A stretch of 64,000 bases of DNA from Arthrobacter sp. H35-D1 (GTDB lineage: Bacteria; Actinomycetota; Actinomycetes; Actinomycetales; Micrococcaceae). Location of the stretch: positions 1-64,000 of the forward strand of contig NZ_JASISP010000015.1 in the NCBI RefSeq assembly GCF_030063185.1. Direction: 5' to 3'. Shown here in pieces: positions 41,841 to 63,519 of this stretch (the stretch's first letter is position 1; each line of letters starts with the position of its first letter). The notes under the pieces are model-generated. The model worked only from the letters and a program-made list of their open reading frames with translations, searched no databases and was not told the DNA's origin. The translations under genes were made by a program, and so were the position numbers.

Positions 41841-44640
<2,800 letters not shown>

Positions 44641-45728: not shown

Positions 45729-45910
45729 CTCATCCCACAGCTCCTGTGGGTTGTCCGCCGCACCGGACCTTCATACTGCAGCTCCGGCGGGTGTTTGGCG
45801 CCCTGACCCGCAGGAGCTGCTGTATGAATGCGGCGGCGACACCCTGACCCGCAGGAGCTGCTGTATGAATGGTGCTGCTGTGCCGTGAACCCGCAGGAGC
45901 TGCTGATCAT
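45729..45910. repeat. 41-bp-period inverted repeat array A
   Basis: Two units in one orientation (CATACTGCAGCTCC-type cores starting at 45731 and 45772) face three in the other (AGGAGCTGC cores at 45812, 45853 and 45895). Spacing is 41, 41 and 42 bp. It fills the gap between the convergent inositol-phosphatase and DUF559 genes. Arrays B and C belong to the same family. Confidence 0.85.
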
Positions 45911-45917
45911 TTGCCGG

Positions 45918-46868
45918 TCAATTGTCCAGTTCTTGCTTCGGCCGCCATCCTTGTTGCCGAAGGGCCGTCTCAAACATGGCCACGATGTGGGTGTGCCCGC
46001 GTTTCATGTCGGCGTGGTAGACCTTGACCCGCACCCAACCACGGGTGCGGGTTCGCTCGTCCCGAGTGCGGTCGTGGAGCTGTTTCTCGGTGTTTTGGTG
46101 GATTTCACCTTCGTATTCGCTGCACACCTTGTATTCCTTGCAGGCCAGGTCGGGGCCGACGTCGAATTCCCCCGGCCCTCCGGAGATCTTGCAGTTCGGC
46201 ACAAACTCCGGCAGTCCTGCACGCTGGAGAATCAATCGGAGCCGCGTTTCAGGAGGTGAGTCCACCCCAACCCGCATGAGGTCCAGCGCCTTTTTGGCCT
46301 TTGCCAGTCCGGGCACATGGTGGAAGCCGGCAATGTAGGCCCGCAGCTGCTCCTCGTGAATGATGGCACGTTTGGGAGGCTCAAAGTGCCGGTCATGCTC
46401 GCAAATCAAGTAGTCCGCCACTGCGACCAAGTCGTCGAGGCTCAGCACGCTCGCCAAATCCAGGAATGTTCGTGCCGGTGTTGTCACGGGCACTCCCTGG
46501 ATCCTCAAGATGTCGGTGCTTGTCAGATTGATGCAATGGCCCGCCACACCGCGGCGCCGGGGTTGGGCACTGCCGGGCGTGCGGGACAAGTGGAGGATCC
46601 TGATGTCCTCGTCAAACCACGGCAGCGGCATTCCATGGATTTGCGCGGCAGTCACATGGGAGACGCAATTCTCCACGCCAAGGCTGGTATACGGCCGCAC
46701 CCGCTCAAGCAGGGGTTGGTGGTTTCTCTGGGGCACCCGTATCTCCCTGCTTGGAGCCGTCAGGTCGCTTGCCCGCATTCGGCTCACCGAGGCGCCCGCC
46801 AAGAGCCCCTCACGATAGGTGAAGGATAGCTGTGATAGTTTCCCCGGAAGCCTTGATCGAGCCGTCAT
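45918..46868 (-). CDS. DUF559-type nuclease-like protein (AbiEi/Vsr-like architecture)
   Basis: 316 aa. The C-terminal 100 residues carry a PD-(D/E)XK/Vsr-like endonuclease fold of the DUF559 kind: GEFDVGPDLACKEYK near 230, SEYEGEIHQNTEKQ near 247, DRTRDERTRTRGW near 264. The first 200 residues resemble the helical part of AbiEi-like proteins (TPARTFLDLASVLSLDDLV near 130). Such genes are abundant and often multicopy in Micrococcales. A role in toxin-antitoxin or mobile DNA is suspected but not shown. A clear N-terminal winged helix is not visible. It is bracketed by array A (3') and array B (5'), and its upstream 80 bp are part of the duplicated block. A remnant of a second copy lies at 47682-47980. 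Confidence 0.75.
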   Translation of the reverse strand: MTARSRLPGKLSQLSFTYREGLLAGASVSRMRASDLTAPSREIRVPQRNHQPLLERVRPYTSLGVENCVSHVTAAQIHGMPLPWFDEDIRILHLSRTPGSAQPRRRGVAGHCINLTSTDILRIQGVPVTTPARTFLDLASVLSLDDLVAVADYLICEHDRHFEPPKRAIIHEEQLRAYIAGFHHVPGLAKAKKALDLMRVGVDSPPETRLRLILQRAGLPEFVPNCKISGGPGEFDVGPDLACKEYKVCSEYEGEIHQNTEKQLHDRTRDERTRTRGWVRVKVYHADMKRGHTHIVAMFETALRQQGWRPKQELDN

Positions 46869-46872
46869 GAAA

Positions 46873-47302
46873 GAAGTCTGGTGCAGAAATCAGAATCCTG
46901 CCTGGAGATATCCACAGCAAGGAGTTGTCCACAGGTTTGTGCTGCTTCATACTGCAGCTCCTGCGGGTTCCGTGCCCGCCGGGAACGTTCATACTGCAGC
47001 TGATGCGGGTCTGCTGCCAAGCAAATATTTCATTCTGCAGCTCCTGTGGGTGTTGTCGCGCAACACTCACAGGAGCTGCAGTATGAGCAGGCAGCAGCCG
47101 CGGACACCCGCAGGAGCTGCAGTATGAGCAGGCAGCAGCTGGGAACACCCGCAGGAGCGGCAGTATGAGCGGGCAGCAGCTGGGAACACCCGCAGGAGCT
47201 GCAGAATGAGCGGGCAGCAGCCGCGGGCACCCGCAGGAGCTGCAGCATGGACCGCAGAGAGTACCGAGGGGCCGGAAATCTCCATGGATGCAAGAAGTTT
47301 GG
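46873..47302. repeat. duplicated element with 41-bp-period inverted array B
   Basis: The first 79 bp (46873-46951) are nearly identical to 63132-63210. Three forward units follow (CAT at 46948, 46990, 47031), then a near-palindromic centre around 47045-47075. Five reverse units complete it (AGGAG at 47071, 47112, 47153, 47194, 47235), exactly 41 bp apart. The right end (about 47275-47302) again matches the end of array C near 63500-63519. It starts 5 bp upstream of the DUF559 start codon. Confidence 0.88.
46909..46933. promoter_or_regulatory. DnaA-box-like pair in element B
   Basis: TATCCACAG (46909-46917) and TTGTCCACA (46925-46933) stand in the same orientation, 16 bp start to start. TTGTCCACA is the usual DnaA box form in high-GC actinobacteria. 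They lie about 40-65 bp upstream of the DUF559 start. Two boxes are too few for an origin. Confidence 0.4.
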
Positions 47303-47309
47303 CGGCGAA

Positions 47310-47645
47310 TAACCATTCCCGCTTCTTGTCCGGGCCCTTGACCAGTCCACCGGCTATCCGTGTGCGGCGGCGGCCGCCGTCGATGCGTGGCGGGAACGCC
47401 TTGGCGGCACGGTCCGCAACGCCCGGTTTTCGTTGCCGCGGACGGCTTCGAAATTGATGAAAAGGCTACCCCGGATTCCGTGGCGTCGAAGCCGCTGGCC
47501 ACTTCCGTCCACTGGCTGGCGGAAGAGACGGCGTGGGGGGCCGGGCGGAGGCTGTCGTCCGCCGTCGAGGTTGGTGGCTTTGACCCAGCCACCGGCACCG
47601 GGCCAGTGGGTTCGGCTCGGCACCGGCGCGTTGGCAATGAGTGCC
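47310..47645 (+). pseudogene. C-terminal remnant of a CaiB/BaiF-type CoA-transferase
   Basis: Two frames joined by a frameshift near 47430 recover family features. The first reads DQSTGYPCAAAAAVDAWRERL and then ARFSLPRTAS, like the TGY..AAA and SLARTA segments of actinobacterial CoA-transferases. The second reads HWLAEETAWGAGRRL and GGFDPATGTGPVGSA, like the usual W-EETPWG and GPLGSD ending. All N-terminal coding is missing. An intact start of a gene of this family stands right after array C at 63539. The family call comes from memory of conserved ends. Confidence 0.5.
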
Positions 47646-47681
47646 GAGGCAGTGCGGGTCCCCACGTGCGGCGCCACCGAT

Positions 47682-47980
47682 GCTGAATGAGCGCCTTTTG
47701 AGCATGTCCGCTACATCGGCATCACTGTGCCGCAGGTCCGCCCTGCACACGTTGACCTGCAGCCAGCCGCGCGCAGCCGTCCGCTCACGGCGAGTGCGGT
47801 CCCGGGGCTGCTGGTGATCGATGCCGAAGCGTTTGGCCATGGGATGCAAGGACTTGCGCTGCCCCTCCAGCATCAACCCCTGCGGGTGCAAATTCGATTT
47901 GTCCCGCCGCTCCCGGCTCGCCGGCACGGCGAAGATCTCGTCGACGCAGCCGTCAATCCCACCTCGCAAGGCGTGCTCTG
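47682..47980 (-). pseudogene. DUF559 nuclease remnant
   Basis: The minus-strand frame includes LEGQRKSLHPM, then DRTRRERTAARGWLQVNV and DVADMLKRR, matching the C-terminal block of the intact gene at 45918-46868 (DRTRDERTRTRGWVRVKV). The flanking reading is degenerate, the N-terminal two thirds are absent and no start is credible. It probably derives from an older second copy. Confidence 0.6.
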
Positions 47981-48122
47981 ATCTTCCTTCAGCACACAAA
48001 ATTAACAGAGCCCGCACAAGACTAAAAGATCCACCATCAAACCCCAACAAAGTAACAACTTCGGCTCTGCGCCCATTCAATCTCTTGCCGCCGCTGCCCG
48101 CCGACCGTTTTCCTCCAACGCT

Positions 48123-48878
48123 TCAACTGCCTTGGAATACTTCCCGGATGTCCATTTCCCTGATGGCAGGTTGGCCTGACGTCGCAAGTGCTGCGGCGTG
48201 GTTGTCACCCGCCGGCACCCAGGCGATCTCCATTCCGTGGGTTTCCCCAAGAAGCGGTGAGTCGACGACGGCGGCCCAGCAGCTCGCTGTTGTTCCGTGA
48301 GGTGCGGGGGGCGGCAGCCCACCAAGGCACAGCGCGTCCGGCTCGACAGCCAAGCCGTGTCCTGTCGCCTTGAGCGCGGCCTCCTTGGCCACCCATAGCC
48401 GTATGCGGGACTCGACATCGGTGTGTGACAGTGCCTCCCGTTCCACGGGGGACAGCGCGAAAGCGTCGAAACCGGAATGCAGCTGTCGCGGAAAGGCTTC
48501 CAGATCTGCCCCGAGGGGCTGGCCGGTGGCGGCGGAGGCAACCAGCACCATGTCCCTGACACGGGACAGGCTCAGGTTGGAGCCTTCGATCACGGGCTTG
48601 CCGTGTGGTCCTCCGCAGCTGCGGCACAGCCTGTGGGCGGCCAAGCCGCGTACATTCCGCAGGTTGCCGCCCAACGCCCGTGCGGCCATGACGCGGAAAA
48701 CGATGTGGGCTGCGGCGTACCCCAGGCCGTCCGCCGGGTTTCTGAAACGTTCCGAAGCGGCCATTTCCGGCTGGCTCAGCAGTTCCCGTGGCCCTCCAAA
48801 GCGGGCTGCCTGGGCGAGAACCTTCTGCGCACTTGTGATGACGTATTCCACTGGACCCGCCGTGTTGGCCGGGATCAC
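48123..48878 (-). CDS. Sfp-type 4'-phosphopantetheinyl transferase
   Basis: 251 aa. Loads the phosphopantetheine arm from CoA onto carrier domains, here most likely the three thiolation domains of the synthetase at 50980-61575. Motifs: CRSCGGPHGKPVI near residue 88, PLGADLEAFP near 124 (metal-binding Asp and Glu) and RLWVAKEAALKATGHGL near 165 (catalytic Glu/Lys). The start GTG 48878 overlaps the exporter stop by 4 bp (GTGA). A longer frame to 49067 would lie wholly inside the exporter gene and is rejected. It is the last gene of the nonribosomal peptide operon. Confidence 0.9.
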   Translation of the reverse strand: MIPANTAGPVEYVITSAQKVLAQAARFGGPRELLSQPEMAASERFRNPADGLGYAAAHIVFRVMAARALGGNLRNVRGLAAHRLCRSCGGPHGKPVIEGSNLSLSRVRDMVLVASAATGQPLGADLEAFPRQLHSGFDAFALSPVEREALSHTDVESRIRLWVAKEAALKATGHGLAVEPDALCLGGLPPPAPHGTTASCWAAVVDSPLLGETHGMEIAWVPAGDNHAAALATSGQPAIREMDIREVFQGS

Positions 48879-50676: not shown

Positions 50677-50885
50677 TAGGAAGCCGCTAGTGCGGCCACG
50701 GTGCGCGGCGTCATGTCCGTCCAGCTCCGGGATACGAAGTCCAGGCATTCCTGCCGACCCCCTGGGCCGTACATCACCATCCAGCCGTTGGGAACATCGG
50801 CAAAGGTGGGCCACAGTGAGTGTTGCTGCAGATCGTTCACCAATACTCGGAAGGTTGCGTTCGTGTCATCAAATGGGTTCGTCAC
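50676..50885 (-). CDS. MbtH-like protein
   Basis: 69 aa chaperone that binds and activates adenylation domains of nonribosomal peptide synthetases. All hallmarks are present: NPFDD at residue 3, SLWPTFADVPNGW near 23 and SRSWTDMTP near 53, giving the three invariant tryptophans. I chose GTG 50885 over TTG 50924 because it gives the canonical MTNPFDD start and has GAGGA about 8 nt upstream; the longer frame lacks a ribosome-binding site. It lies 94 bp after the synthetase gene in the same operon. Confidence 0.93.
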   Translation of the reverse strand: MTNPFDDTNATFRVLVNDLQQHSLWPTFADVPNGWMVMYGPGGRQECLDFVSRSWTDMTPRTVAALAAS

Positions 50886-50979
50886 GTAATTTTCCTCAGT
50901 TTCCTCGGTGGATTCTTCTGACAAGCGAAAGGCCGGAAACGGTGCCGAAACAACCGTGCAGCGACACCGCCGTCGTCAG

Positions 50980-53900
50980 CTATTCGGTGCCCTGGCCCAG
51001 CTGGATTGCCAGCATCGGCAGGATGTGATCGAGGGCACTTTCACTGAGCATCGCCGAGTGCCGTGCCGGAACGGTTGTCTCGGAAATGGGGCCGTTCACG
51101 AACGGCTCCCAGGAGGACGACGTCGGCGCGCCGGCTGGGACGTCCTCGGTGGCACGGAAGACGTGCATCCCGCCGTCGAACACGCCGACAGCGTTCTCGC
51201 GGATCATGCCGGCCAGCACCGAGAAGTTCGCCACCATGGCGTTCAGGGACTCGAGCGGGATACTGCCCAATGGATTGTGGTTTTCCTGCAGGACCTCCAG
51301 CACGCGTGCGCCGTCCAGGCTTGCCGCCTCGTGGGCCGGAACGGGAAAGCCGGCCGCATGAAGGTAGTTCGCCCACAGGGCAGGGCCCGTGCCGATGTCG
51401 GCATTGGAGTCCTGCCTCGTGGGGAACGCATCCAAGATCCCCAGGAAGGCCACTTGGTGCCCCAATTCCTGGAGCCGGGTGGCCAGCCGGTGTGCAAGGT
51501 TGCCGCCGAAGGACCAGCCAAGCAGGTGGTAGGGGCCCTCGGGCTGCACCTCTTGGAGCTGGCCAATGTAGTCGTCGGCCAGCTCAGTCAGTGTTTGTGC
51601 CCGGAGCCCTTGATCGCGACCTGGAAGCATGCCTGGCATCTGCAGCCCGATCAGCGGCCGTGCCTTGTCCAGCCGGCGCAGCATCGCCGCGTAGCCCCAG
51701 CTCACGCCGGTGGCCGGGTGCACGGCAAAGAGGGGCGCCTTGCTTCCGGTGGTGCGCAACGGCAGCAGCTGCCGCAGGCTGTCCGCAACGTTCTCCTGCT
51801 TGCCCTTGGAAGCCTCGGCCAGCAGCTGTTCCACACTGGGGGAGCGGAACAGGGCCTGCACGGGAAGGTCGGTGCCCAGGGCGTCATTGACTTTGGAGAT
51901 GAGCGGTTGCGCCAGAAAGGAATGCCCGCCCAGTTCAAAGAACGACTCGTCGATCCCAACCCTCGGGAGGGAAAGAACGTCCTCGAAGATCTGCGCCACG
52001 GCCTTCTCCCTGGGGGTCCGGGGGGCCAGCCCGGCACTGCGGTCCTGGCCGGCAGGATCGGGCAGCGCCGCGGCGTCCACCTTTCCATTGAGCGTTAGTG
52101 GTATGCGTTCAACAACCACCACGGCGGCGGGAACCATGTAGCCCGGCAGCATCGAACGCAGCTGCGAACGGGCCTGCCCTGCAAGTTCCTGGACCGCCAG
52201 TGGGGCCGCATCTGCGGAGTCCGCCCGGTGGCCCGGTTCCGGCACCACATAGGCCACCAGCCTTGCAGTGTCCGGAAGGCCGGTTCCCCCGCCGGCGTCG
52301 CCGCCCCGCACCAAGGCCGCGGCGGCGGCGACCCCTGGCACGGCACGCAGCGCCTGCTCCACTTCGCCAAGCTCCACCCTGAAGCCGCGGATCTTGACCT
52401 GGTGGTCGTTGCGTCCCTGAAAGACGAGCTCGCCACCGGCACTTCTGGTCACCAGGTCGCCGGTGCGATACATCCGGTCCCCGGCTGCAGCGAAGGGGTC
52501 CGCGACAAACCGTTCGGAAGTGAGGTCCGGCCTGCCCCTGTAACCGCGGGCCAGTTGCGGCCCGGACAAGTAAAGTTCGCCGCCAACGCCTGCGGGCACG
52601 TGCTGCAAATAGCCATCCAAGATGTAGGCGCGGGAATTCCGGGTGGGGATGCCGAGCACGGGTTGTCCGGTGCTCGGAGCTGTTCGGGAATCTGCGGCAC
52701 GCGGCACGCTGGCGACCAGCGAGTCAACTGTCGACTCGGTGGGTCCGTAGAGGTTCCAGGCGCGCAACGAACTGCGGGAGGCAAGCTCGTCCCACAGGGC
52801 GGTGTCAAAAGCTTCCCCGCCCAAGGCCAGCCGAAGCGGGGGACGGCCGTTGGCGGCGCGTTCGTCCAACATCGTGGAAAAGGCCGGTTCTGCGAGCAGT
52901 TGGCGAACATAGCCCGGGGTGGTTTCCCACGCCCCGATGCCGTGCTCGGCAAAGTATCCGGCGAGCCGTTGGGGATCCAGCCGCACCTCGTCGGTGACCA
53001 GGTGCAGTTCATGCCCGTCTACCATCCACAACATCGGATCCCAGGAGGCGTCAAAACCGACACCGGTGGTGTGTGCCACCCGCACCGGACCTTGGACAGT
53101 GCGTTCCACGGCAGGGGGGAACAGTGTTCCTCGGTGTGATGCCAGCAAGTTGGCGAGGGCGCCGAGACTGATCTCCACGCCCTTGGGCCGGCCCGTGGAA
53201 CCCGAAGTGAACATGACATAGGCCAGCTCGTCCGCCCCCCGGAGTGCCTGTTCACCCTGCTGGGCGGGGTGCTGGTCTGCCGGACTTGGGGCCGGAAGGT
53301 CCTCCATTTGAAGCACGGTGGTGCCCACCATGCCGGCGGTTGCGAGCCCGGAGTTGAGGGCCGGCTCCAGGGCTTCGGTGCTGATGACAGCGACCGCGCC
53401 TGCATCTTCCAGGATCGCCGCCACCCGGTCGGCGGGGTAGTCGGCGTCGATGGGATTGTAGACCGCTCCGGCCCGCAGCACGCCCAGGGCCGCCACCACC
53501 GTGTGCAGCGACCGTGGCAAGTACACCGAGACCAGCTCCCCGGCCTGTATTCCCGAGCCAAGTAGCGCGCCCGCCACTTGTGATGTGGCCGCATCCAAGG
53601 CCGCAAACGAGAGCGACTGGCTGCCGCAAACCACGGCCGTGTCATCCGGTTGACGGGCGACTGTCTCGGCGAGGACCTCCAAAAGCGGCGGGGCCGGGGT
53701 GAGGACGACAGGGCCGGTCGTGGCAGCGACCAGTGCGTCGATTTCGTCCGCCGAGAGGATGTCGAGAGTGGAAATGGCGTGGTCCGGTTCCTGCACAGCC
53801 AGGGCCGCAAATGCCTCGAACCGTTCGATCAAGGCCCCGACGGCGTGGCTGCTGAACATGGCAGCGTTGTAGTCAAGCGTGGCGGCCAGGCCCTGCTCAG

Positions 53901-56900
53901 GGCCCAGCTCCCGGAAGGTGAATGACAGATCGAACTTTGCTTCTCCCGTAGCCGATTCAGGCTCGGCCACTGCGTGCACGCCGGGAAGTTCGACGGTGGC
54001 ACGGGCGCTGGTTTCCACCGCCAGCATGGTCTGGAAGAGCGGATGCCGGCCCAGCTCACGGTGCGGGTTGAGCGCCTCAACCAGGCGCTCAAAGGGGACG
54101 TCGTCATGGTCGAAGGCGTCGAGCACGCTGCGCCGGGCGGTGCCAAGCAGTTCACGGAAGCTGGGATTCCCTGCCACATCCAACCGGATCGGTACGGTGT
54201 TGACGAAGAAGCCGATGAGTTCCGTCAGGGCCGGATCGCTCCGTCCCGCAGTCGGGGAGCCGATCACCAGGTCACTGCCGGCACCAACGCGCGAGAGAAA
54301 TCCGCCGAGTGTGGCGTGCAACGCCATGAAGAGGCTGGCACGCTCCGAGGAAGCAAGCCGGACCAATGCGGCCGTTGTCTCCTTGCCGAGCGTAAAGGAT
54401 TGTTGGCCGCCCGGCTGGCGTGCCCCCGGATCACGTGTCCCGTCCGTGGGCAGCGCCAACTCCGGGGGAGCCCCTGCCAGGGTTTCCTTCCAGCTGGTGA
54501 GCTTGGCGTGCAAGGCTGGTTCGACCGTGGGGTCGCCGGCGGACCCGTTCTCGGCGGACCCGTTCTCCGCGGACCCGCCTGCTGCGGAACCGGACTGCGG
54601 CATGCCTTCCAGCACTTGACGCTGCCACAGCGCGAAGTCCGCGTACTGCAGTCCCAAGGCCCGTTGCAGGGGGCGGGCACCGCTGCAGCGGGCCGAATAG
54701 GCGGTGGAGATATCCCGGGCCAAGGGGGCCAGGGAGGCTCCGTCGCTGGCAATGTGGTGGACCACGAGCTGGAGCACCCATTCGTCGTCGTCGATCCCGA
54801 AGAGGGTGGCGCGCAGGGGAAGCTCCAGGGCGACATCGAAACCGCGGGCGGCCTGGTCGGAGAGCAGACGTGCCAACTGTTCCTGGGACGTGACGTCCTG
54901 GAAGGACAGCAGCCCGGTGACGCCGGATGCCGGGTGGATCAGCTGTTCCGGTGTGCCACCCTGTGCGGGGTAGGTGGTGCGCAGGACCTCATGGCGCGCC
55001 ACAAGGTCATCGAGGGCGTGCGCCAGGGCTTCCGGGTTGAGTTCCCCGGTGAGCCGGACGGCCAAGGCGATGTTGTAATCGGAGGAGCCCGGGTCAAGCT
55101 GGTTGAGGAACCACAGCCGTGATTGCGCGTAGGAGAGTGGAATCCGGTCGGGACGGTGGTTCTTGTTCACCTTGGCCCAAGCATCGACGGAGGTGCCAGG
55201 CGCCTGGCCCGCAAGGTCTGTGGCCCCGGCTGTGGCCCCGGCGTCGGCTGTGGCGGACAGAAGCTCCAACAGGGCTGCCGGGGTGGGGGACTCAAAAACG
55301 GCCCGCAGCGGCAGTTCCGTGCCGAAGCTTTCGCGCAGCTTGGCGATCAGTGCCACCGCCAGCAGTGAATGGCCGCCGAGTTCAAAGAAGTCATCATCCA
55401 CATGCACCTCGTCAACACCCAGGACGGTGCCGAAGGCCGCGCAGACCTTCACTTCCTGCTCGGTCCGCGGTTCCCTCGATCCCGAGCCGGAGATGGCAGG
55501 GGCGGGGAGTGCGCGTTTGTCCAGTTTGCCATGTGATGTCAACGGAATCTCCGCCAGGGCCACGAGGGCCTTTGGCATCATGTAGTCGGGCAGGCGGCGG
55601 CTGGCGAAGCGCATCAGTTCATCCGAAGAGGCATCTCCGACGTAGTAGCAGATGATGCGTCCGGTCGCACCGGATTCCACCACCACTGCGGCGCGTCGAA
55701 CCTGTTCGTGGGCTGCGATCACGCTTTCAATCTCCCCGGGCTCCACCCGGAAGCCGCGGATCTTCAGCTGCTCATCGGCACGGGCCACGAATTGCAGCTC
55801 CCCGCCGGGGAGCTGGCGCACCAAGTCGCCTGTGCGGTACATCCTGGCACCGTCCAGGTGGGGGTTGGCGACGAAGTGGCTGGCGGTCTCGGCAGTTCGG
55901 TTGACGTACCCGGCGGCCATTCCGGCACCTGCCAGGTACAGCTCGCCGGCAATGCCCTGGGGCACGGCCACGAGGTAGTCGTCAAGGACATGGCTTTCCA
56001 CATTCCGCACAGCCCGGCCGATGTTCGCCACGGGGCCGGTGATGCGTGTCAGCACAGAGTCAACAGTGAATTCGGTGGGCCCATAGAAGTTATAGGCTGC
56101 AACGCCTTCGTTTCCGGCCAGATCATCCCACAGCTCGGCTGGAACGCTCTCGCCGCCCAAGACCAAAACCAGCGGCGCGGACCTCGGGGTGTCCAGCAGC
56201 CCTGACAGCAGCAGCGCGCGCACGTGGGATGGGGTGCTTTCGAGCACGGTGACGGCCTGGGTGGCGCAGAACTCCACCAGTGCCTCCGCATCGGTGCGGA
56301 TGTCGTCGTCGACCATGTGCAAGGTGGCGCCGGCAACCAGCCACAGCATCGGATCCCAGGCCGCATCAAAACCGAGTCCGGCAACGTGGGCCACTGCAGG
56401 GCCACCGCCGTCGTCGGTGTCAAGGGACGCGTTCCCGAAGGTGTCGGCGTAAATGGTGTTTCGGTGCTGGAAATACAGGTTGGCCAGGGCCGCATGGCCG
56501 ACGGCGACCCCTTTGGGGGTGCCGGTGGAACCGGAGGTGTAGACCACGTAGGCTTGGTCGGTGGTTTTGACCGTCAGCTCAGCCAGTGCCGCGGTGGCGG
56601 ATGCCTGCCGTCCTGCGGCTCGGAGAACTTCCAGGTTGCTTGCCGTGATGGTCAGAGCCGGCGCGCTGTCGTCGAGGATCAGGGCTTTCCGTTCGGCGGG
56701 ATAGGTCAGGTCCACGGGAACATGGACCGCACCGGCACGCAACACGGCCAGAGTCGCGCAGACCACGTTGTTCGTGCGAGGCAGTGCGACAGCGACCCGC
56801 TCGCCCGGTTGAACTCCGGAGGCGATCAGGCCTGCTGCGAGCAGTTCGACGGCGTCGAGCAGTTCAGCAAAGGTCAGGGTGGCAGTGCCGTCGCTGACGG

Positions 56901-59900
56901 CCATCCGCGCGGGGTGACGGGCCGCGGTGTCCGCAAATTCATCGAGCACCGTGGACTGGCCGTTCGCTACCACAGGACCTTGGCCCAGGGCTTCGGCGTG
57001 AGCGCTTTCTTCCTCCGTGGCAACCGAAAGCTTGGACAAGGGTCTGTGGGGATTGCCCACAAACTGTTCCACCATGTGCAGGAAACGTTGGGCGATCAGG
57101 GCAGCGGATTCCGGGGCAAAGAGGGCAGGATCGAAACTCAGCGATCCACGCAGGCCCGAGCCTGCGCCCTCCTCGGCGAGGTCCAGCAGCAGGTCGAATT
57201 TTGCACCTCCCGGTTCTGCGGTCCTGTCAGCCGTGGTGACCAGACCGGGCATCGAGAGCTGTTCAGGTGCCGAGTTGGCGAGTGTGAGCATGACCTGGAA
57301 CAAGGGGTGCCGGTCCCGCGAACGGGCTGGCTTGAGTTCTTCAACAACCCGTTGGAACGGCGCGTCCTGGTTGGCATAGGCACGCAAGTTGGCGTATCTG
57401 ACGGTGTCAATGAGTTCACCGGCTGTGGGGTTGTTTGAGGTGTCGGTGCGCAGCACCAGGGTGTTGACAAAAAAGCCGACGAGGTCATCCAGGGCCGTGT
57501 CCGGGCGGCCTGCAACCGGAGTGCCTATCGGGATGTCCGTGCCGGCACCGAGCTTGGTCAACAATGCGGCGAAAGCGGCCTGCAGCACCATGAAGAGGCT
57601 GGCATTGTGCTCCCTGGCCAGGTCCGAGAGCCGTTCGTGAGTTTCGGCACCGATCGACACGGGCACAGCAGCCGAATCCCACGGTGCTGTCCGTGTCCCC
57701 CTGGCATGGTCGAAGGGCAGGGCCAGCTCCTCGGGTGCGCCGTCGAGTTCGGCTTTCCAGAACGCCAGCTGCCGCGAGAGGGGGCTTTCGGAATCGTCTT
57801 CGCTGCCCAGCTCTGCACGCTGCCACAGCGCGTAGTCGGCGTACTGGACAGGCAGCGGTGTGAAGTCCGGACACGTGTTGCCGAGACGAGCGGAGTAGGC
57901 CGTGGACAAGTCCCGTGCCAGCGGTCCAAGCGACCAGCCGTCGGCGGCAATGTGGTGAAGGGTCAACAGCAGGACGTGCTCGCGGGCACTGAGCTGAAAC
58001 AGCGCAGCGCGCAGCGGAAGCTCGGTGGTGACGTCGAAGCCGCGGGCCGACTCGGCACGGACCACGCGGTCCAGGTGCTCCGCCGTGGTTTGCACGGCGG
58101 AGAGAGGAACCCGGGCTTCGCCGACCGGGATGATGTGCTGTTCCGGCTCGCCTCCCGTGAACGCGAACACGGTGTGCAGGCTTTCATGGCGGGCCACAAC
58201 ATCGTTGACGGCATCTTCCAAGGCAGCGACATCCAGCTGTCCGGAAAGCCTGAGCACGATCGGAATATTATAGGCCCCGGACGTGGGGTCGAAGCGGTTG
58301 AGGAACCACAGACGGCGTTGGGCAGGGGAGAGCGGCAGCGGACTGGGGCGCTTTTGTCGGACCAGCGGACGCGGCTCCGCCACGGGTGCGTCAAGGGTCG
58401 CGGCGATGCCGGCGACCGTGGGAAATTCAAAGACCGTGCGCAGTGCCGGTGCAGAACCGAGCTTTGCACGCAACACTGCCACCAGCCTGGTGGCCAGCAG
58501 AGAATGGCCGCCCAGTTCGAAGAAATCGTCGTCGCGCCCCACCCCGTCCAGCCCCAGCACCTCCGAGAAGGCAGCCGCAACAGTACGTTCGGCGTCGTTG
58601 TGCGGTGCAACGGAAATGCTGCTGGTGGTGGGTTCCGGCAGCGCCTTGGTGTCAAGCTTTCCGTTGGCAGTCAGCGGGATCTGCGGGATGCGCACAATGG
58701 CCGACGGGACCATGTAGTCCGGCAGGCTCTGGCGGATGGCGCCGCGGATGGCTGCGACGTCCACCTCGTCCCCACTGGTGATGTAGCCCAGCAGCTGATC
58801 GTAGCCAGCTCGGTTTTTAGACACGACGACGGCGGCACGGTCCACTCCGGGGGTGCCACGGAGTACCTGCTCAATTTCAGAAAGCTCTATCCTGAATCCT
58901 CGGATCTTGACCTGTTGGTCAATACGGCCCAGGAACTCAACCCCGGTGTTGTCCAACCTCCTGACCACGTCGCCGGTGCGGTACATGCGCGAGCCGTCGG
59001 ACGCAAAGGGGTCCGCGATGAAGCGTTCGGAACTGAGTTCGGGCTGGTCAAGGTAGCCTCGTGCCACGTTGTGCCCGGCGACGTAGAGCTCGCCGATGGC
59101 GTTTCCCGGTACGGGGTTCAATCCGGAGTCCAGGATGTAGTGGCGGCTGTTGGCCACCGAGGAACCCAAATGCGGGGCCGTGCCAGGCTCCATGATGGCT
59201 GTCATGCTGTCCACGGTGGTTTCGGTGGGGCCGTAAAAATTGTAGGCCGTGACGCCTGGGATTTGGGCCAGCGCGCCCCAAAGCTCGGGATCCACCGCTT
59301 CCCCGCCCAAGGCCACCACCGAGGGGTGGGCGCCGCCGTCGAACAGTTTTTCCGCCAACAGCGCCTTGGCGAAGGACGGTGTGGTTTCAATGCTGTCGAT
59401 CTGCTGCTCGGCCAAGTATCCGGCCAGGGCCTGCGGGTCCCGTCGGGTAAGGTCGTCGACCAGGTGGAGTTCGTGACCGGCCATGAGCCACAGGATCGGG
59501 TCCCACGAGGCATCGAAGGAGAGTCCTGCCGTGTGTGCAACCCGCAGGGTGCGGCCCAGCCTGGCCTCGGCGGGGCGGAATATGTCTTCACAGTGCGAGG
59601 AATAGAGGTTCAGCAGTGCGCGGTGTTCCACACCGACGGCCTTGGGCCGGCCGGTTGAGCCTGAGGTGAAGATGACGTAGGCGAGGTCGTGCTGGCTGGC
59701 CACGGCGGTCTCCGGCCGGTGCGATGGCAATTCGGCAAGGGTTGCTGCCATGGTGGCGGAATCCAGGGCCACTTCCCGCACATGGCCGGATATGTGGTGT
59801 GTCAACTGCGAGTCGGCATCGTCCGTGGAGGTCAGAAGGAGCAGCGGTGCGGCGTCTTCCAACATGCCCTGGACGCGTCTTTCCGGATAATCGGGGTCGA

Positions 59901-61575
59901 TGGGAACGTAGGCAGCGCCGGACTTGAGTATCGCCAGAATAGCAACGCCCAGGCCTGTGGTCCGTCCCAGGCGCACGGCCACTGATTCGCCGGGACGGGC
60001 GCCCCGACGGCGCAGGTAATGTGCCAGCTGGTTGGACTTTTGGTCGAGTTCGGCAAAGCTTAGTTCTCCATCCGCTGCCACCAAAGCCCTGGCCGTGGGG
60101 TTTGCCGCTGCATGGGCTTCGAATTCCTCGGCGACTGTGTGGGCTGGCAGATCCGTGGACTCCGCACCCCCTTGAGCCAACAGTTCCTGCTCTTCCTCCG
60201 GCGTTGTGAGGGTGAGGGCGGCAACTGTGGTGCCGGGGGCGGAGGTAATCTTTCCGAGCAGACGCGTAAAGCGGTGCAGGTGGTTCATGACGGCTTCGCG
60301 GCTGTACAGCTGGGAGTTTGCCTCGAACTGGATGGTGACAACACCGGCGTCGTCCGCGGTCTCAACGGCGTTCCGCCGACCCGGCTGCAATCCATGGATC
60401 ACCATCGAGAGGTCGTCGATCGGACCGGTGGACAGGATGTTCATGCAACCGGTGGACGGGCCAAAATTGATGCCGTCAACGATCGGGAGGATGTTGATCG
60501 ACGGACCAATATAGCCTGGGCGCGTCGCGAGGCCCTCAGAGCGGAACCGCTGGTGGATCATGGCATTGCGCACGGCGCGGCCCGCGTTGACGATGGTGTC
60601 GCGCACCGTATCCTCGGGCGAGACTTCGAGCCGGACCGGAACAATGTTGGAGAGCATCGACGGAACGGACTTTGCGAGTGCGCCGCGGCGGGCCGTGACG
60701 GGCAGGGCCACGGAAACGTGCCTCTCCGCCGTCATCTTGTGCAGGTAGATGGCCATGGCGGCGACAATGAGCGCTGGTGCACTTGCTGTGCCGGCGTCAA
60801 GCGCGGCCACAATATCCCGGGGCAGCGGTGCTGACAGCCGAACCAGTGCTGTGGCAATGCCGGTGGGGCGCTCGGCCAGCCCGGACGCCGGCTCCGCATC
60901 TGCCAAAGCGTTCTGCCAGAATTCCTTGTCGGATTCGGCATTTCGGGAATCCTCGTAGCCGGCCTCGTCCAACAACAGCGCGTCCAACGACGGGAACGCC
61001 ATCTTTGCTCGCTCCGTCGTGTTGGCGTCGTCGGGCACCCCTGAATCGTTAGCGAGCAGTTCGTTGTAGATCGCTGCGATCCGCTTGAGCACAAGCACGG
61101 CGGAGTAGCCGTCCAGCATCAAGTGGTGCACGCGCTGGTAGAAGTAGTACCTGTGGTCCTCGACCTGAAACAGTTCCACTCGGAGCAGCGGGTCCGTGGC
61201 TACATTGCGCGCCGTGGCGAGATCGTCATCCATCAGTGCCCGTGCTTGCGCCCCTGCCGTGCAGGTATTCTGCTCCAGAGTGCGCAGGTCCGTCACTTCC
61301 AGTTGCACCCTCGAGGGCGAGATCAGTTGGTGCGGGCCGTCGTCGTCCTCGGCAAAGCGCACGTTCAACGCATCCGTCTCAGCGACGGCGGTCTCCACCG
61401 CCCGGCGCATCAGCCCGGCATCAAGGTCGCCCTGGACATCCACAAACTGGGCAATCTGGTACATCGGGTTCTCCGGGTCCAGGTTTTGGGCGTACCAAAC
61501 ACCCCGCTGCGCCGTAGTCAGACTGCGGCGGGCGCCAGTGTGGAACGAAGACATGGAATAAGCGTGCTGGGACAT
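50980..61575 (-). CDS. three-module nonribosomal peptide synthetase (C-A-T-C-A-T-C-A-T-TE)
   Basis: 3531 aa from ATG 61575, with GAGAAGG just upstream. Module 1: C about 12-440 (HHLMLDG), A 478-978, T near 1025 (FFELGGHSLLA). Module 2: C 1080-1510 (HHIAADG), A 1541-2021, T near 2068. Module 3: C 2145-2590 (HHIASDG), A 2631-3168, T near 3213 (LGGHSFLA). Then TE 3271-3531 with GWSFGG near 3356, an Asp in GILDAFP and a His near the end. All catalytic motifs look intact and there is no epimerase or methyltransferase domain. By hand alignment to GrsA the A-domain pockets read DADEAGFVDK, DADEVGFVDK and DADEAGLVDK, almost the same and rich in acid. One, perhaps basic, monomer used three times is possible. 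A starting C domain suggests an acylated N terminus or trans-supplied starter. No aryl-acid genes are in the window. The product is unknown. Confidence 0.93.
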   Translation of the reverse strand: MSQHAYSMSSFHTGARRSLTTAQRGVWYAQNLDPENPMYQIAQFVDVQGDLDAGLMRRAVETAVAETDALNVRFAEDDDGPHQLISPSRVQLEVTDLRTLEQNTCTAGAQARALMDDDLATARNVATDPLLRVELFQVEDHRYYFYQRVHHLMLDGYSAVLVLKRIAAIYNELLANDSGVPDDANTTERAKMAFPSLDALLLDEAGYEDSRNAESDKEFWQNALADAEPASGLAERPTGIATALVRLSAPLPRDIVAALDAGTASAPALIVAAMAIYLHKMTAERHVSVALPVTARRGALAKSVPSMLSNIVPVRLEVSPEDTVRDTIVNAGRAVRNAMIHQRFRSEGLATRPGYIGPSINILPIVDGINFGPSTGCMNILSTGPIDDLSMVIHGLQPGRRNAVETADDAGVVTIQFEANSQLYSREAVMNHLHRFTRLLGKITSAPGTTVAALTLTTPEEEQELLAQGGAESTDLPAHTVAEEFEAHAAANPTARALVAADGELSFAELDQKSNQLAHYLRRRGARPGESVAVRLGRTTGLGVAILAILKSGAAYVPIDPDYPERRVQGMLEDAAPLLLLTSTDDADSQLTHHISGHVREVALDSATMAATLAELPSHRPETAVASQHDLAYVIFTSGSTGRPKAVGVEHRALLNLYSSHCEDIFRPAEARLGRTLRVAHTAGLSFDASWDPILWLMAGHELHLVDDLTRRDPQALAGYLAEQQIDSIETTPSFAKALLAEKLFDGGAHPSVVALGGEAVDPELWGALAQIPGVTAYNFYGPTETTVDSMTAIMEPGTAPHLGSSVANSRHYILDSGLNPVPGNAIGELYVAGHNVARGYLDQPELSSERFIADPFASDGSRMYRTGDVVRRLDNTGVEFLGRIDQQVKIRGFRIELSEIEQVLRGTPGVDRAAVVVSKNRAGYDQLLGYITSGDEVDVAAIRGAIRQSLPDYMVPSAIVRIPQIPLTANGKLDTKALPEPTTSSISVAPHNDAERTVAAAFSEVLGLDGVGRDDDFFELGGHSLLATRLVAVLRAKLGSAPALRTVFEFPTVAGIAATLDAPVAEPRPLVRQKRPSPLPLSPAQRRLWFLNRFDPTSGAYNIPIVLRLSGQLDVAALEDAVNDVVARHESLHTVFAFTGGEPEQHIIPVGEARVPLSAVQTTAEHLDRVVRAESARGFDVTTELPLRAALFQLSAREHVLLLTLHHIAADGWSLGPLARDLSTAYSARLGNTCPDFTPLPVQYADYALWQRAELGSEDDSESPLSRQLAFWKAELDGAPEELALPFDHARGTRTAPWDSAAVPVSIGAETHERLSDLAREHNASLFMVLQAAFAALLTKLGAGTDIPIGTPVAGRPDTALDDLVGFFVNTLVLRTDTSNNPTAGELIDTVRYANLRAYANQDAPFQRVVEELKPARSRDRHPLFQVMLTLANSAPEQLSMPGLVTTADRTAEPGGAKFDLLLDLAEEGAGSGLRGSLSFDPALFAPESAALIAQRFLHMVEQFVGNPHRPLSKLSVATEEESAHAEALGQGPVVANGQSTVLDEFADTAARHPARMAVSDGTATLTFAELLDAVELLAAGLIASGVQPGERVAVALPRTNNVVCATLAVLRAGAVHVPVDLTYPAERKALILDDSAPALTITASNLEVLRAAGRQASATAALAELTVKTTDQAYVVYTSGSTGTPKGVAVGHAALANLYFQHRNTIYADTFGNASLDTDDGGGPAVAHVAGLGFDAAWDPMLWLVAGATLHMVDDDIRTDAEALVEFCATQAVTVLESTPSHVRALLLSGLLDTPRSAPLVLVLGGESVPAELWDDLAGNEGVAAYNFYGPTEFTVDSVLTRITGPVANIGRAVRNVESHVLDDYLVAVPQGIAGELYLAGAGMAAGYVNRTAETASHFVANPHLDGARMYRTGDLVRQLPGGELQFVARADEQLKIRGFRVEPGEIESVIAAHEQVRRAAVVVESGATGRIICYYVGDASSDELMRFASRRLPDYMMPKALVALAEIPLTSHGKLDKRALPAPAISGSGSREPRTEQEVKVCAAFGTVLGVDEVHVDDDFFELGGHSLLAVALIAKLRESFGTELPLRAVFESPTPAALLELLSATADAGATAGATDLAGQAPGTSVDAWAKVNKNHRPDRIPLSYAQSRLWFLNQLDPGSSDYNIALAVRLTGELNPEALAHALDDLVARHEVLRTTYPAQGGTPEQLIHPASGVTGLLSFQDVTSQEQLARLLSDQAARGFDVALELPLRATLFGIDDDEWVLQLVVHHIASDGASLAPLARDISTAYSARCSGARPLQRALGLQYADFALWQRQVLEGMPQSGSAAGGSAENGSAENGSAGDPTVEPALHAKLTSWKETLAGAPPELALPTDGTRDPGARQPGGQQSFTLGKETTAALVRLASSERASLFMALHATLGGFLSRVGAGSDLVIGSPTAGRSDPALTELIGFFVNTVPIRLDVAGNPSFRELLGTARRSVLDAFDHDDVPFERLVEALNPHRELGRHPLFQTMLAVETSARATVELPGVHAVAEPESATGEAKFDLSFTFRELGPEQGLAATLDYNAAMFSSHAVGALIERFEAFAALAVQEPDHAISTLDILSADEIDALVAATTGPVVLTPAPPLLEVLAETVARQPDDTAVVCGSQSLSFAALDAATSQVAGALLGSGIQAGELVSVYLPRSLHTVVAALGVLRAGAVYNPIDADYPADRVAAILEDAGAVAVISTEALEPALNSGLATAGMVGTTVLQMEDLPAPSPADQHPAQQGEQALRGADELAYVMFTSGSTGRPKGVEISLGALANLLASHRGTLFPPAVERTVQGPVRVAHTTGVGFDASWDPMLWMVDGHELHLVTDEVRLDPQRLAGYFAEHGIGAWETTPGYVRQLLAEPAFSTMLDERAANGRPPLRLALGGEAFDTALWDELASRSSLRAWNLYGPTESTVDSLVASVPRAADSRTAPSTGQPVLGIPTRNSRAYILDGYLQHVPAGVGGELYLSGPQLARGYRGRPDLTSERFVADPFAAAGDRMYRTGDLVTRSAGGELVFQGRNDHQVKIRGFRVELGEVEQALRAVPGVAAAAALVRGGDAGGGTGLPDTARLVAYVVPEPGHRADSADAAPLAVQELAGQARSQLRSMLPGYMVPAAVVVVERIPLTLNGKVDAAALPDPAGQDRSAGLAPRTPREKAVAQIFEDVLSLPRVGIDESFFELGGHSFLAQPLISKVNDALGTDLPVQALFRSPSVEQLLAEASKGKQENVADSLRQLLPLRTTGSKAPLFAVHPATGVSWGYAAMLRRLDKARPLIGLQMPGMLPGRDQGLRAQTLTELADDYIGQLQEVQPEGPYHLLGWSFGGNLAHRLATRLQELGHQVAFLGILDAFPTRQDSNADIGTGPALWANYLHAAGFPVPAHEAASLDGARVLEVLQENHNPLGSIPLESLNAMVANFSVLAGMIRENAVGVFDGGMHVFRATEDVPAGAPTSSSWEPFVNGPISETTVPARHSAMLSESALDHILPMLAIQLGQGTE

Positions 61576-61638
61576 GGGCCTTCTCAAGATCGCGGTTGCC
61601 CGGGGAGGTACCCGGGTGGCTTGTTCGTGGGAGTGATG

Positions 61639-61708
61639 AATGGCACCACCGCTCCGTCCCGGGGCAGGCCCAGATCGGTCCTGCCTCGCGCGGAGCGGGG
61701 GTGCCATT
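61639..61708. terminator. long hairpin between the small secreted gene and the synthetase gene
   Basis: 18-bp outer stem (61639-61656 with 61691-61708, one mismatch) encloses an inner GGCAGG/CCTGCC pairing. It lies 64 nt before the synthetase ATG and 15 nt after the small gene's stop. It could attenuate read-through, so that the short gene is made in excess over the synthetase. Confidence 0.6.
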
Positions 61709-61722
61709 GGAGGAAGCGCTGG

Positions 61723-61992
61723 TTACTGGAACTGGCCCAGTTGCAGCGGGCCAATGGGGAGGGACACCAGCGGCCCGTTGATCAGGGGGGCTCCCACAAT
61801 CGGGCCCTGGACAAGAGCGCCGTTTAGGAAGGATCCGCCCAGAATGGAGGTGGATGTCGCAGGGGCAGATTGGCTGGCAGCCGCAGGGGTTGTGGTCGCG
61901 GCGGTCGCCGGACCTGTCATAGCGGCTAGTCCGCCGAAGGCAATGGCTGCTGCGGCGGTGATCGTTCCAATGGTCTTTGCTGACTTTTTCAC
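61723..61992 (-). CDS. small secreted hydrophobic protein upstream of the synthetase
   Basis: 89 aa from GTG 61992, with GGAG 8 nt upstream. A classical signal peptide (KKSAK, then an Ala/Gly/Ile-rich core, cleavage likely after GPATA near residue 31) leads to an Ala/Thr/Ser spacer. A 38-residue tail follows, rich in Gly, Pro, Leu and Ile, where NGALVQGPIVGAPLI and NGPLVSLPIGPLQLG form an imperfect repeat. There are no cysteines and no charged residues in the tail. I do not recognise the family. It shares strand and probably promoter with the synthetase operon, separated from it by the hairpin at 61639-61708. It could be a surface protein, an immunity or carrier protein for the peptide product, or an unrelated neighbour. 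Confidence 0.65.
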   Translation of the reverse strand: MKKSAKTIGTITAAAAIAFGGLAAMTGPATAATTTPAAASQSAPATSTSILGGSFLNGALVQGPIVGAPLINGPLVSLPIGPLQLGQFQ

Positions 61993-62210
61993 TGTTTGTC
62001 TCCTGCTGTTGTCGGTGTGTTTGCACTGTTGCGGGGCATGACCTGCCGGGCAACCTCATGGGACATTCGGAACAAAGCCGGCTGTGGATGGGTAATGCCT
62101 GCCACCTCATGAATTGAGGCTGCGTCGTGGGGGCAATGGCCGTGGGTAACACGGATAGCGCCATGCCGTCCCGTGCGGTTCGGTTCGGGAGACCACAAAC
62201 GGGTCAACAT
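61993..62210 (-). other. upstream region of the small secreted gene, with a doubtful 73-codon frame
   Basis: A frame from ATG 62210 ends in a TGA that overlaps the GTG of the secreted gene by 4 bp (GTGA), which mimics coupling. Its histidine-rich, low-complexity translation has no recognisable domain and no good ribosome-binding site. I read this stretch mainly as leader and promoter DNA. Confidence 0.25.
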
Positions 62211-62607
62211 TTAAAGAAATGCTTGTCTTTGGTCGAGCAATGAAACCCGGATGAGGTCCCCGTCGGGATCGGCGATGACGAAGGTCCGGCCGAAGACGTT
62301 GCCATGCGGCTCTTGAACCACGGTGACTGCCTTGGAGGTCCATTCGCTGCAGCAGTCTTCGACGGCAGCATGAGATCCCGCCAGCATGAGCCTTACCTCG
62401 CTGGCGCGCGGAGTCGTGGCTTCCGCGTTGTCAGGGCTGCCGGGCAGGAGGGCGAAGAGCACACCGGGGCAACCTCGAACGGGATGTAGTGAGGGCCGAC
62501 TGTGACGGGTTCCATGTTGAACAGGTCGCTGTGGAGGCGAGCGGAGCGCTCGACGGCAGTGACGTGGATTCCGGGACGTGGATAAGGAACAGGTTCGGTG
62601 CGGCCAT
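62211..62607 (-). pseudogene. glyoxalase/VOC-family protein, two frameshifts
   Basis: Three frames join to a standard ~130-residue VOC protein: MAAPNLFLIHV from 62607, then IHVTAVERSARLHSDLFNM and PHYIPFEVAP, then GVLFALLPGSPDN to FVIADPDGDLIRV. Single missing bases near 62571 and near 62466 explain both shifts. VOC proteins bind metals in paired beta-alpha-beta-beta-beta units and act as lyases, dioxygenases or resistance proteins. It is divergent from a decayed WYL regulator, a pairing common for such genes. Both shifts lie in short C/G runs, so sequencing error is possible. Confidence 0.7.
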
Positions 62608-62698
62608 TGAGGGGTCTCCCACGTTGGGATTGTCTGATTGCGCCAGCATGGCATCCATACATGACAGCTCTTGACTGATAATGACTGACAAGGGGGCA

Positions 62699-63128
62699 AT
62701 GAAAACTCAGCGTCTGCTCTCGATGCTGTTGCTGCTCCAGACGAGGCGCCGGATGACCGCACCGGAGCGGGCGGACGAGTTGGGTGTCCCGGTGCGGACG
62801 GTGCTACCAGACGTGACAGCGCGGTCGGATGCCGATGTGCCGACTATTGTCGAACGTGGACGCTACGGCCGTGTTGTGCTCCTGCCGGGATCGCAGCTGG
62901 ACGTATCCCGACTAAACTCCGACGGAGATCGAAGCGTTGAAACTACAGGGTCTGGACCCCGGTCAGGCTCAGCAGATCGGGCCTGAGGCGCCGACACGCA
63001 CCGCCGTGCACGAAGTTTCTTGGCGGACGGTGGTCCCGTGCGGTCTTCTCGCGAAAGCGGGCCAGCGTTACTTGGCCTCCGATTCAAACGGGGTACCTCG
63101 GCTCCGCGCGTTGCCGAGGCTGCAGTCG
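62699..63128 (+). pseudogene. YafY/WYL-family transcriptional regulator, decayed
   Basis: ATG 62699 follows AAGGGGG. The N terminus is a DeoR/YafY-type winged helix (MKTQRLLSMLLLLQTRRRM, then a VPVRTV recognition segment). Near 62911-62916 a frameshift interrupts it. The next frame continues TPTEIEALKLQGLDPGQAQQIG and APTRTAVHEV, and then only scraps of the WYL domain (YLASDSNGVPRLRALPR). A large internal part is missing. The repeated element C begins at 63132, where the gene is lost. It probably regulated the adjacent VOC gene. Confidence 0.7.
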
Positions 63129-63131
63129 TGG

Positions 63132-63519
63132 GAAGTCTGGTGCAGAAATCAAAATCCTGCCTGGAGATATCCACAGCAAGGAGTTGTCCACAGGTTTGTG
63201 CTGCTTCATACGGCAGCTCCTGCGGGTTCCGTGCCCGCCGGGAACGTTCATACTGCAGCTCCTGCGGGTTCCACCTTGGCGGGTGCGTTCATACTGCAGC
63301 TCCTGCGGGTCTGCTGCTAAGCAACAACTTCATTCTGCAGCTCCTGTGAGTGTTCCGCGACAACACCCGCAGGAGCTGCTGAATGAGCGGGCACCAACCG
63401 GGAGCACCCGCAGGAGCTGCTGAATGAGCGGGCACCAACCGGGAGCACCCGCAGGAGCTGCTGAATGAATCCCGGTGCGAACCAAAAGGGTGAGAAACCG
63501 CCATGGCTGCAAGGAGTCC
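63132..63519. repeat. duplicated element with 41-bp-period inverted array C
   Basis: The first 79 bp match 46873-46951 nearly exactly. Four forward units follow (TTCAT at 63205, 63247, 63288, 63329), then three reverse units (AGGAG at 63371, 63412, 63453). Steps are 42, 41, 41 and then 41, 41 bp. The right end (about 63500-63519, CCATGGCTGCAAGGAGT) matches the end of element B. A CoA-transferase gene begins 20 bp later. Confidence 0.88.
63168..63192. promoter_or_regulatory. DnaA-box-like pair in element C
   Basis: TATCCACAG (63168-63176) and TTGTCCACA (63184-63192) have the same spacing and orientation as in element B. Both are inside the 79-bp block that is conserved between the elements. 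Confidence 0.4.

Follow-up and report, generated by a model that had tools for sequence, protein, structure and literature searches.

A stretch of 64,000 nucleotides from Arthrobacter sp. H35-D1 (contig NZ_JASISP010000015.1 of assembly GCF_030063185.1), hereafter the window, holds three arrays of short facing repeats, two of which bracket an intact gene for a nuclease-like protein (45918-46868). The window lies in contig C6 of the host genome (G000; 4.46 Mb, 86 contigs); other genomes, contigs and loci are denoted by G, C and L numbers. A search of the window with the repeat core GCAGCTCCTGCGGGT, allowing up to 3 mismatches, returned 32 places against 5.4 expected (maximum of 100 shuffles, 12), and 20 of the 32 fall in the three arrays, with the unit numbers (2+3, 3+5 and 4+3) and the 41/42-bp pitch that an initial annotation had given. 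The features are listed below; array extents were defined as the outer cores plus 8 bp beyond.

45729-45911, no strand: array 1, 2 forward and 3 reverse units of ~23 bp, lying downstream of the nuclease gene, with its central dyad at 45770-45828
45918-46868, minus strand: nuclease-like gene, 316 amino acids, with a predicted AbiEi-like DNA-binding domain and a predicted Vsr-like (DUF559-type) nuclease domain
46908-46916 (ATATCCACA) and 46925-46933 (TTGTCCACA), plus strand: DnaA-box-like sites upstream of the gene, each one base off TTATCCACA
46946-47251, no strand: array 2, 3 forward and 5 reverse units, lying upstream of the nuclease gene, with its central dyad at 47029-47087
63132-63204, plus strand: counterpart of the nuclease-gene leader (46873 onwards) that also has the DnaA-box-like sites but lacks an attached nuclease gene (no homologue is listed there)
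63205-63469, no strand: array 3, 4 forward and 3 reverse units, with the leader attached and no gene; central dyad 63329-63387

The repeat family of the window arrays (W) has a unit of ~23 bp, about TTCATWCTGCAGCTSMTGYGGGT as derived from 47 dyads, which begins about TTCAT and ends with GGGT. In the W dyad two facing units stand 28 bp apart start to start, which leaves a 13-bp gap (23-13-23). Positions 46873-47209 align with 63132-63468 over 344 bp at 81%, which indicates that leader and array were copied between the places of arrays 2 and 3, in one direction or the other. Rfam (at gathering score) and tRNA searches of the window gave no match. A CRISPR (clustered regularly interspaced short palindromic repeats) locus was ruled out, given that the units face each other and that near-identical spacers occur inside several arms; cas genes were not searched for. 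Decayed coding repeats, which would have undone the initial annotation, were also ruled out: the pitch of 41 is not a multiple of 3, and none of 35 array rows lay inside a called gene.

In the host genome the W core, with at most 1 mismatch, was found at 77 places (6 for a reversed-pattern control), and 20 places (control, 0) held a degenerate facing pair whose gap was set to 13 bp. The 21 arrays read there were fetched by single cores, so that gaps were free, and each of the 21 had a single inversion centre, its facing units starting 28 bp apart; a further facing pair in array 2, at 15 bp, comes from a chance match to the core. Their 67 same-strand steps measured 41 (58), 42 (5), 31 (2), 30 (1) and 52 bp (1). 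When relatives were added (49 arrays), the facing distance was 28 in 48/50 pairs, the others being one 27 and the chance 15, and the same-strand pitches (n = 86) were 30 (3), 31 (3), 41 (73), 42 (6) and 52 bp (1). Pitches of 41/42, 30/31 and 52 bp are whole helical turns. A family-wide search with gaps of 3-33 bp allowed gave 31 facing pairs in 8/395 genomes; among the 23 pairs listed, 20 had a gap of 13 bp, one (G008) of 12 and two (G248, another genus) of 5. The gap was tested by the single-core reading of the host genome and by the search allowing 3-33 bp; the gap was fixed at 13 bp when the foreign dyad loci were fetched, and the 47 dyads were selected at 28 bp, so that neither set provides a test of it. 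The further arrays that the initial annotation proposed to look for in the genome and its relatives thus exist, and their pitch is conserved. A scan of named genomes for same-strand cores 10-40 bp apart gave 10 stretches, 7 from Arthrobacter (pitches 41, 42 and 30) and 3 from unrelated organisms (pitches 36-54).

Several variants were seen beside these. In G248, loci L087 and L088 are W-core dyads with a 5-bp centre in place of 13. In G008 the dyad L270, orthologous to array L046, has a 24-bp gap (13 + 11, about one extra turn), as if a short duplication had added one helical turn. In A. silviterrae (L094, L097) three successive array copies follow each other 298 bp apart, GCGACC replaces GCGGGT in the units of one arm, and one arm has a 30/31-bp pitch.

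Among the 33 array rows with genes on both sides, the two neighbours are convergent in 15, on the same strand in 12 and divergent in 6 (hand count; the simple codon-usage gene caller missed at least the gene in L083, which makes the two rows of that locus miscalls, and L076 and L077 represent a single locus). Perfect 23-bp inverted pairs make up 2/47 dyads. Within a dyad the two arms agree at 19.26 of 23 positions, against 17.5 after shuffling (0/5000 shuffles, all 47 dyads), and in the host-genome dyads alone at 19.14 against 18.43 (P 0.004); this likeness fits a hairpin, a homodimer site or conversion equally well. The very long cruciform that had been suggested for the arrays found no support: by eye, the spacers of the two arms do not look complementary, though the 23-bp units are common to both arms, and 11/47 central dyads have different core types in their arms.

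The gene between arrays 1 and 2 had been overlooked in the initial annotation. It is present with elements on both sides also in Arthrobacter sp. E3 (L091), the metagenome-assembled genome S7A_St_54 (L096), A. silviterrae DSM 27180 (L097), G016 (L083), G008 (L120) and G009 (L119); in G001 and G022, only the upstream side was found to carry an element. The N-terminal 195 residues were modelled with confidence (mean predicted local distance difference test score, pLDDT, 91; 75 sequences), and the top structural matches of the model were AbiEi (6y8q, E 4e-4) and Rv2827c (1zel, E 1e-3), both at probability 1.00, with template modelling (TM) scores by query of 0.48 and 0.54; the PADLOC AbiEi model was matched by 75/75 non-redundant genus members. 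In the full-length model (6 sequences, pLDDT 81.6) the C-terminal part resembled two nucleases, Vsr (1vsr; probability 0.97, TM 0.50 by target) and, in its catalytic domain, I-Bth0305I (3r3p; probability 0.90, TM 0.73 by target), and the family profile matched the endonuclease-like 3hrl by sequence (E 0.007). DUF559 was matched by 48 and REase_MTES_1575 by 32 of the 75 members, in which D240, H257 and D266 never vary and E207 is conserved to at least 90%. The predicted C-terminal domain thus combines the catalytic fold and the residues of the Vsr-like nuclease superfamily and is assigned to it, less firmly than the N-terminal part is assigned to the AbiEi-like proteins.

The nuclease-like genes are under purifying selection (ratio of non-synonymous to synonymous substitution rates 0.13-0.32 in 10 pairs). 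Genus genomes carry 3-13 homologue matches each at the cut-off used, and an open frame of 280-340 amino acids was present in 90/93 rows, a figure to be read with the fact that strong matches favour intact genes. A homologue was also seen in 5 records of a plasmid collection and in 1 of a phage collection (MT837503.1, a 6.7-kb faecal phage; 29% identical over 97% of the query).

Bracketing of the gene was scored across the family as the best local alignment between the 300 bp upstream and the 300 bp downstream. A score of at least 25 was reached at 75/91 distinct genus loci, against 2.0% of 2000 mismatched flank pairs (upstream and downstream flanks of different genes, protein identity below 60%) and 0/125 control open reading frames (ORFs); at a score of at least 18 the figures were 80/91 loci, 21% of mismatched pairs and 30% of control ORFs. 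The controls were taken from 20 stretches of 12 kb at round-number positions in 11 genomes; their flanks were not matched for intergenic status, for which the mismatched-flank control makes up. The 105 genus matches of at least 237 bits among those listed (hand count) supplied 92 distinct loci to the analysis, with 13 left unfetched; L138 duplicates L048 and was excluded from the counts of 91 or 92, L159 is without downstream DNA, and some rows are not independent of each other, G001 and G022 being 99.9% alike over L076/L077. Outside the genus, matches at E 1e-30 were found in 8/198 phylum genomes (the host included; no more than 11 candidates scored per genome listed), and at the 26 loci from seven of these genomes a score of at least 30 was reached in 18/26 (4.2% of 650 permuted pairs) and of at least 25 in 22/26 (17.5%).

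At the 91 genus loci, dyads stood on both sides of the gene in 43, a forward block preceded and a reverse block followed it in 22, and 26 fitted neither arrangement. Among 19 distinct tandem units in homologue flanks the pitch was 30-33 in 11 and 41 in 5 (the others 20, 23 and 47); control windows passed the tandem rule in 15/780 cases, with 13 different pitches, 2/15 being at 30-33 or 41. Of the 120 best palindromes in homologue flanks, 72 spanned 55-65 bp in spite of differing sequences, whereas the control windows passing the palindrome score (24/880) had scattered spans.

The 9-mer TTATCCACA, the DnaA-box consensus, was found on either strand within 150 bp upstream of 73/92 distinct homologues and of 0/125 control ORFs, and not within 200 bp downstream of the homologues; outside the genus it was present at 6/26 loci. 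In 54/73 cases it stands 40-49 bp before the predicted start, and in 65/73 it has one orientation. It could be a promoter element in place of a DnaA box, because its position before the predicted start is fixed.

A chance association of the gene with the arrays was considered on the grounds that its paralogues are not beside W arrays, and was dropped when the paralogues were found to carry their own, different repeats. The host genome has four strong homologues, each with a different element: the window gene, L049 (CGAAACGGGAGCAGTCGGCAATGTTC), L048 (CGAGATGCCACATATGGTG) and L050 (CGACGCTCCTGCACGTTCGGG in 32-bp tandem). With patterns taken from the host and near relatives, and reversed patterns as controls, the L049 family was found in the host genome at 23 sites (control 0; facing distance mostly 26) and the L050 family at 58 (control 0; pitch 32, facing distance often 74). 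The L048 family numbered 27 in G001 (control 0), 27 in G022 (1), 14 in G008 (1) and 13 in G009 (1), with a facing distance mostly of 38. The commonest facing distance therefore differs by family (W 28, L049 26, L048 38, L050 74). Dispersal is clear in the host genome for three of the four families, and for the L048 family only in relatives. The genomes with many repeat copies are those with the closest cognate protein, but over all genomes the correlation is moderate. For the five distant host paralogues the upstream-downstream scores were 53 (L055), 47 (L053), 27, 24 and 21. In G008 and G009 an L049-type gene (L152, L153) was seen with differing element sequences on its two sides but a similar dyad size.

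Occupancy was compared between genomes at the site of array L046, where both neighbour genes lie on one locus in 9/23 genus genomes. A W element occupies it in three (3+2 units in the host, 1+2 in G008, 1+1 in G009), another dyad in three, a whole element-nuclease-element unit in one (G006, L194) and nothing in two, with 21 bp (G020) and 1 bp (G003) between the alignment ends. One of the other dyads (G007) scores 43 against the flank of nuclease gene L151, situated on a different contig of that genome, with 16 for the next best match, and that of G014 has weak matches only (22-23). By eye, G008 has one 41-bp reverse unit more than G009, and this unit was most likely lost in G009, because its spacer in G008 is like that of the host. 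Comparison at orthologous sites supports the change in copy number that had been suggested for the arrays. In G006 the gene pair of this site was seen on contig C1 (homologue position as in PLSDB plasmid NZ_CP012477.1 of Arthrobacter sp. ERGS1:01).

When nuclease flanks were compared by BLAST with other DNA fetched from the same genome (8-51 kb each), matches were obtained for 20/88 genes, 6 of which represent one locus fetched twice (L117, L118, L129, L139, L153 and L194). Loci that had not been fetched for the element in question were matched at L208 (a control stretch of G002; cognate gene L187), L237 (G013; L168), L285 (G021; L192) and L275 (G007; L151); most loci hit by such cross-locus matches had been retrieved with a similar pattern. 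In G008 (contig C86), L080 and L090, at 13097 and 19791, were seen to carry the flanks of host array L039, each near its own dyad; on this comparison a segment between two elements has been gained or lost, because the left and right flanks of L039 sit 6.7 kb apart there.

Taken together, these results make it probable that the arrays are dispersed partner sites of the nuclease-like protein encoded between two of them, which would help to spread them in the manner of repetitive extragenic palindromes (REPs) and their REP-associated tyrosine transposases (RAYTs), with another enzyme. Binding by the encoded protein suggests itself because the AbiEi fold is shared, the pitch is helical and the measures of the W dyad equal those of the Rv2827c site. 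The AbiEi-like N-terminal domain would bind the 23-bp unit, two molecules would sit head to head on the 23-13-23 dyad, further molecules would stack on the same helical face in tandem arrays, and the gene's own element copies would provide autoregulation, perhaps timed by DnaA. The phased protein-binding platform of the initial annotation thus finds computational support in the helical pitches (49 arrays, and 16/19 tandem units beside homologues) and in the proven operator dimensions of the AbiEi family. With less certainty, the Vsr-like domain may nick or cut DNA at or beside the elements, after which repair or replication may copy an element to new intergenic sites and alter tandem copy number; the copied item would mostly be a small gene-less dyad and rarely a whole element-gene-element unit. 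Such spreading, to which a lower grade is given than to binding, is suggested by several observations: the elements are dispersed, one site varies in its occupants, a whole unit stands at a shared site, leader and array recur at array 3 without a gene, and the protein is under purifying selection. It is quite possible, if short of probable, that the whole forms a selfish system, in which DnaA-timed AbiEi-Vsr nucleases, several per genome and each with its own dyad code, bind one helical face, cut or nick, and thereby copy gene-less dyads and occasional whole units, sites and proteins co-evolving into mutually exclusive families.

Several results weigh against the partner-site reading. The Foldseek matches of the C-terminal part to Vsr (1vsr) and 3r3p had E values of 0.13 and 0.69 and ranks of 8 and 15, from a 6-sequence model, and the first six matches were Toxoplasma mitoribosomal proteins (best E 0.014). 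Bracketing fell below the threshold at 16/91 distinct loci, and the L048 family in the host genome amounts to 6 matches, 4 beside its own gene and 2 away (control 1). Repeat number and cognate-protein identity were only moderately correlated over 22 genomes (Spearman 0.51, 0.49, 0.45 and 0.40; P 0.016, 0.022, 0.036 and 0.063), genomes with 60-70% identical proteins often lacked the repeat pattern searched for, and G014 has a W dyad without a close W gene (best 42%). At the L046 site, the dyad of G002 matched no nuclease flank compared. Neither a target-site duplication nor an exact insertion boundary was found. Several arrays stand at orthologous sites in two or more genomes, and movement must therefore be slow or old. 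Binding, cutting and mobility are all three inferred.

A regulator or nucleoid-type AbiEi-like protein, which would bind its operators and the dispersed arrays so as to control genes or chromosome structure and would play no part in their spread, would account for the helical pitch, the operator geometry, the intergenic placement and the conserved orthologous positions; it is an unlikely explanation of the whole, since nuclease-type residues are conserved, one site is taken by different families and also by a whole gene unit, and the neighbours are convergent in 15/33 scorable rows, which places these arrays away from promoters. The same convergent rows and the two perfect pairs are what tandemly duplicated bidirectional terminators or mRNA-stabilising hairpins would predict, but such structures would leave both the helical pitch and the bracketing of one gene family unexplained and do not agree with the 11 dyads of differing arms, which makes them very improbable.

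The similarity to AbiEi, the Vsr-like fold and the 3-13 homologue matches per genus genome would also suit a restriction-like or addiction system, in which the nuclease attacks DNA unless bound or titrated at dyads and the arrays serve as self-protection or decoys. This was judged improbable; it leaves the facing pairs and the gene bracketing unexplained, and nothing more specific speaks against it, no search for partner toxin or methylase genes having been made. Mobilisation by a Y1 (HUH) transposase encoded elsewhere, as for REP doublets forming hairpins (REPINs) with RAYT, fits small intergenic inverted pairs and the one Y1_Tnp match (PF01797) in the host genome; that copy (C33:153990) is not beside an array, the family occurs in 2/23 genus genomes (G000 and G017), and of 7 genomes with W pairs only the host has it, so this reading has already failed here and can hardly be correct.

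The partner-site system is nevertheless like REP/REPIN and RAYT (TnpA-REP, REPtrons) in its dispersed small intergenic inverted pairs, in gene-less sites that outnumber the gene in the families counted, and in several families per genome; an enzyme gene flanked by its own repeats together with dispersed gene-less copies, as in a REPtron, was found. It differs in its enzyme (AbiEi-like and Vsr-like in place of a Y1/HUH transposase), in helically phased same-strand blocks that face each other, and in the DnaA-box motif upstream of most genes. As with miniature inverted-repeat transposable elements (MITEs) and their parent transposon, gene-less copies here share ends with a gene-bearing unit, and 22/91 loci are built as forward block, gene and reverse block; unlike MITEs, the system has no known transposase, and target-site duplication was not found. 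In homing endonucleases such as I-Bth0305I the likeness lies in the predicted C-terminal fold and in the residue order E-D-x-H-D, which we take to be the EDxHD pattern; here, by contrast, the gene sits between repeats with dispersed cognate dyads, and cleavage and homing are putative. EDxHD is used as a family name in PMC6083498. PMC3733652 describes REP palindromes as carrying a GTAG or CGTC tag at one end, and no such tag was found at the ends of W units. PMC7319586 reports that the paired 23-bp inverted repeats bound by AbiEi are separated by 3 bp and those bound by Rv2827c by 13 bp; the predicted N-terminal fold and the 23-bp inverted sites resemble those of this type IV toxin-antitoxin family, the 13-bp gap being that of Rv2827c. 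The differences are the extra nuclease domain and sites that occur genome-wide and not just in the gene's promoter. No AbiEii gene lies between the two window arrays, where one gene only was called; the neighbours were not scanned for DUF1814.

Elsewhere in the window, a type VII secretion type ATPase (37203-41639, plus strand), a DNA ligase (42160-44640, plus strand) and a large nonribosomal peptide synthetase (50980-61707, minus strand) were recognised on visual inspection of the translations.

That a gene can have cognate repeats dispersed through the genome is already known from RAYT. The partnership of gene and repeats described here looks new, in that no tested family holds both its enzyme and its repeats, and no description of repeats tied to DUF559/AbiEi-like nucleases was found in the literature searched, in which subscription journals were mostly out of reach. 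With it, poorly understood actinobacterial genes (AbiEi-like with a DUF559-type domain) gain a partner and a testable role, and the findings suggest that REP-like repeat populations arose also with an enzyme other than RAYT. The natural pairs of protein and site, with their unlike sequences, offer material for a recognition code, and the cause of small-repeat spread in bacteria becomes testable in a soil bacterium.

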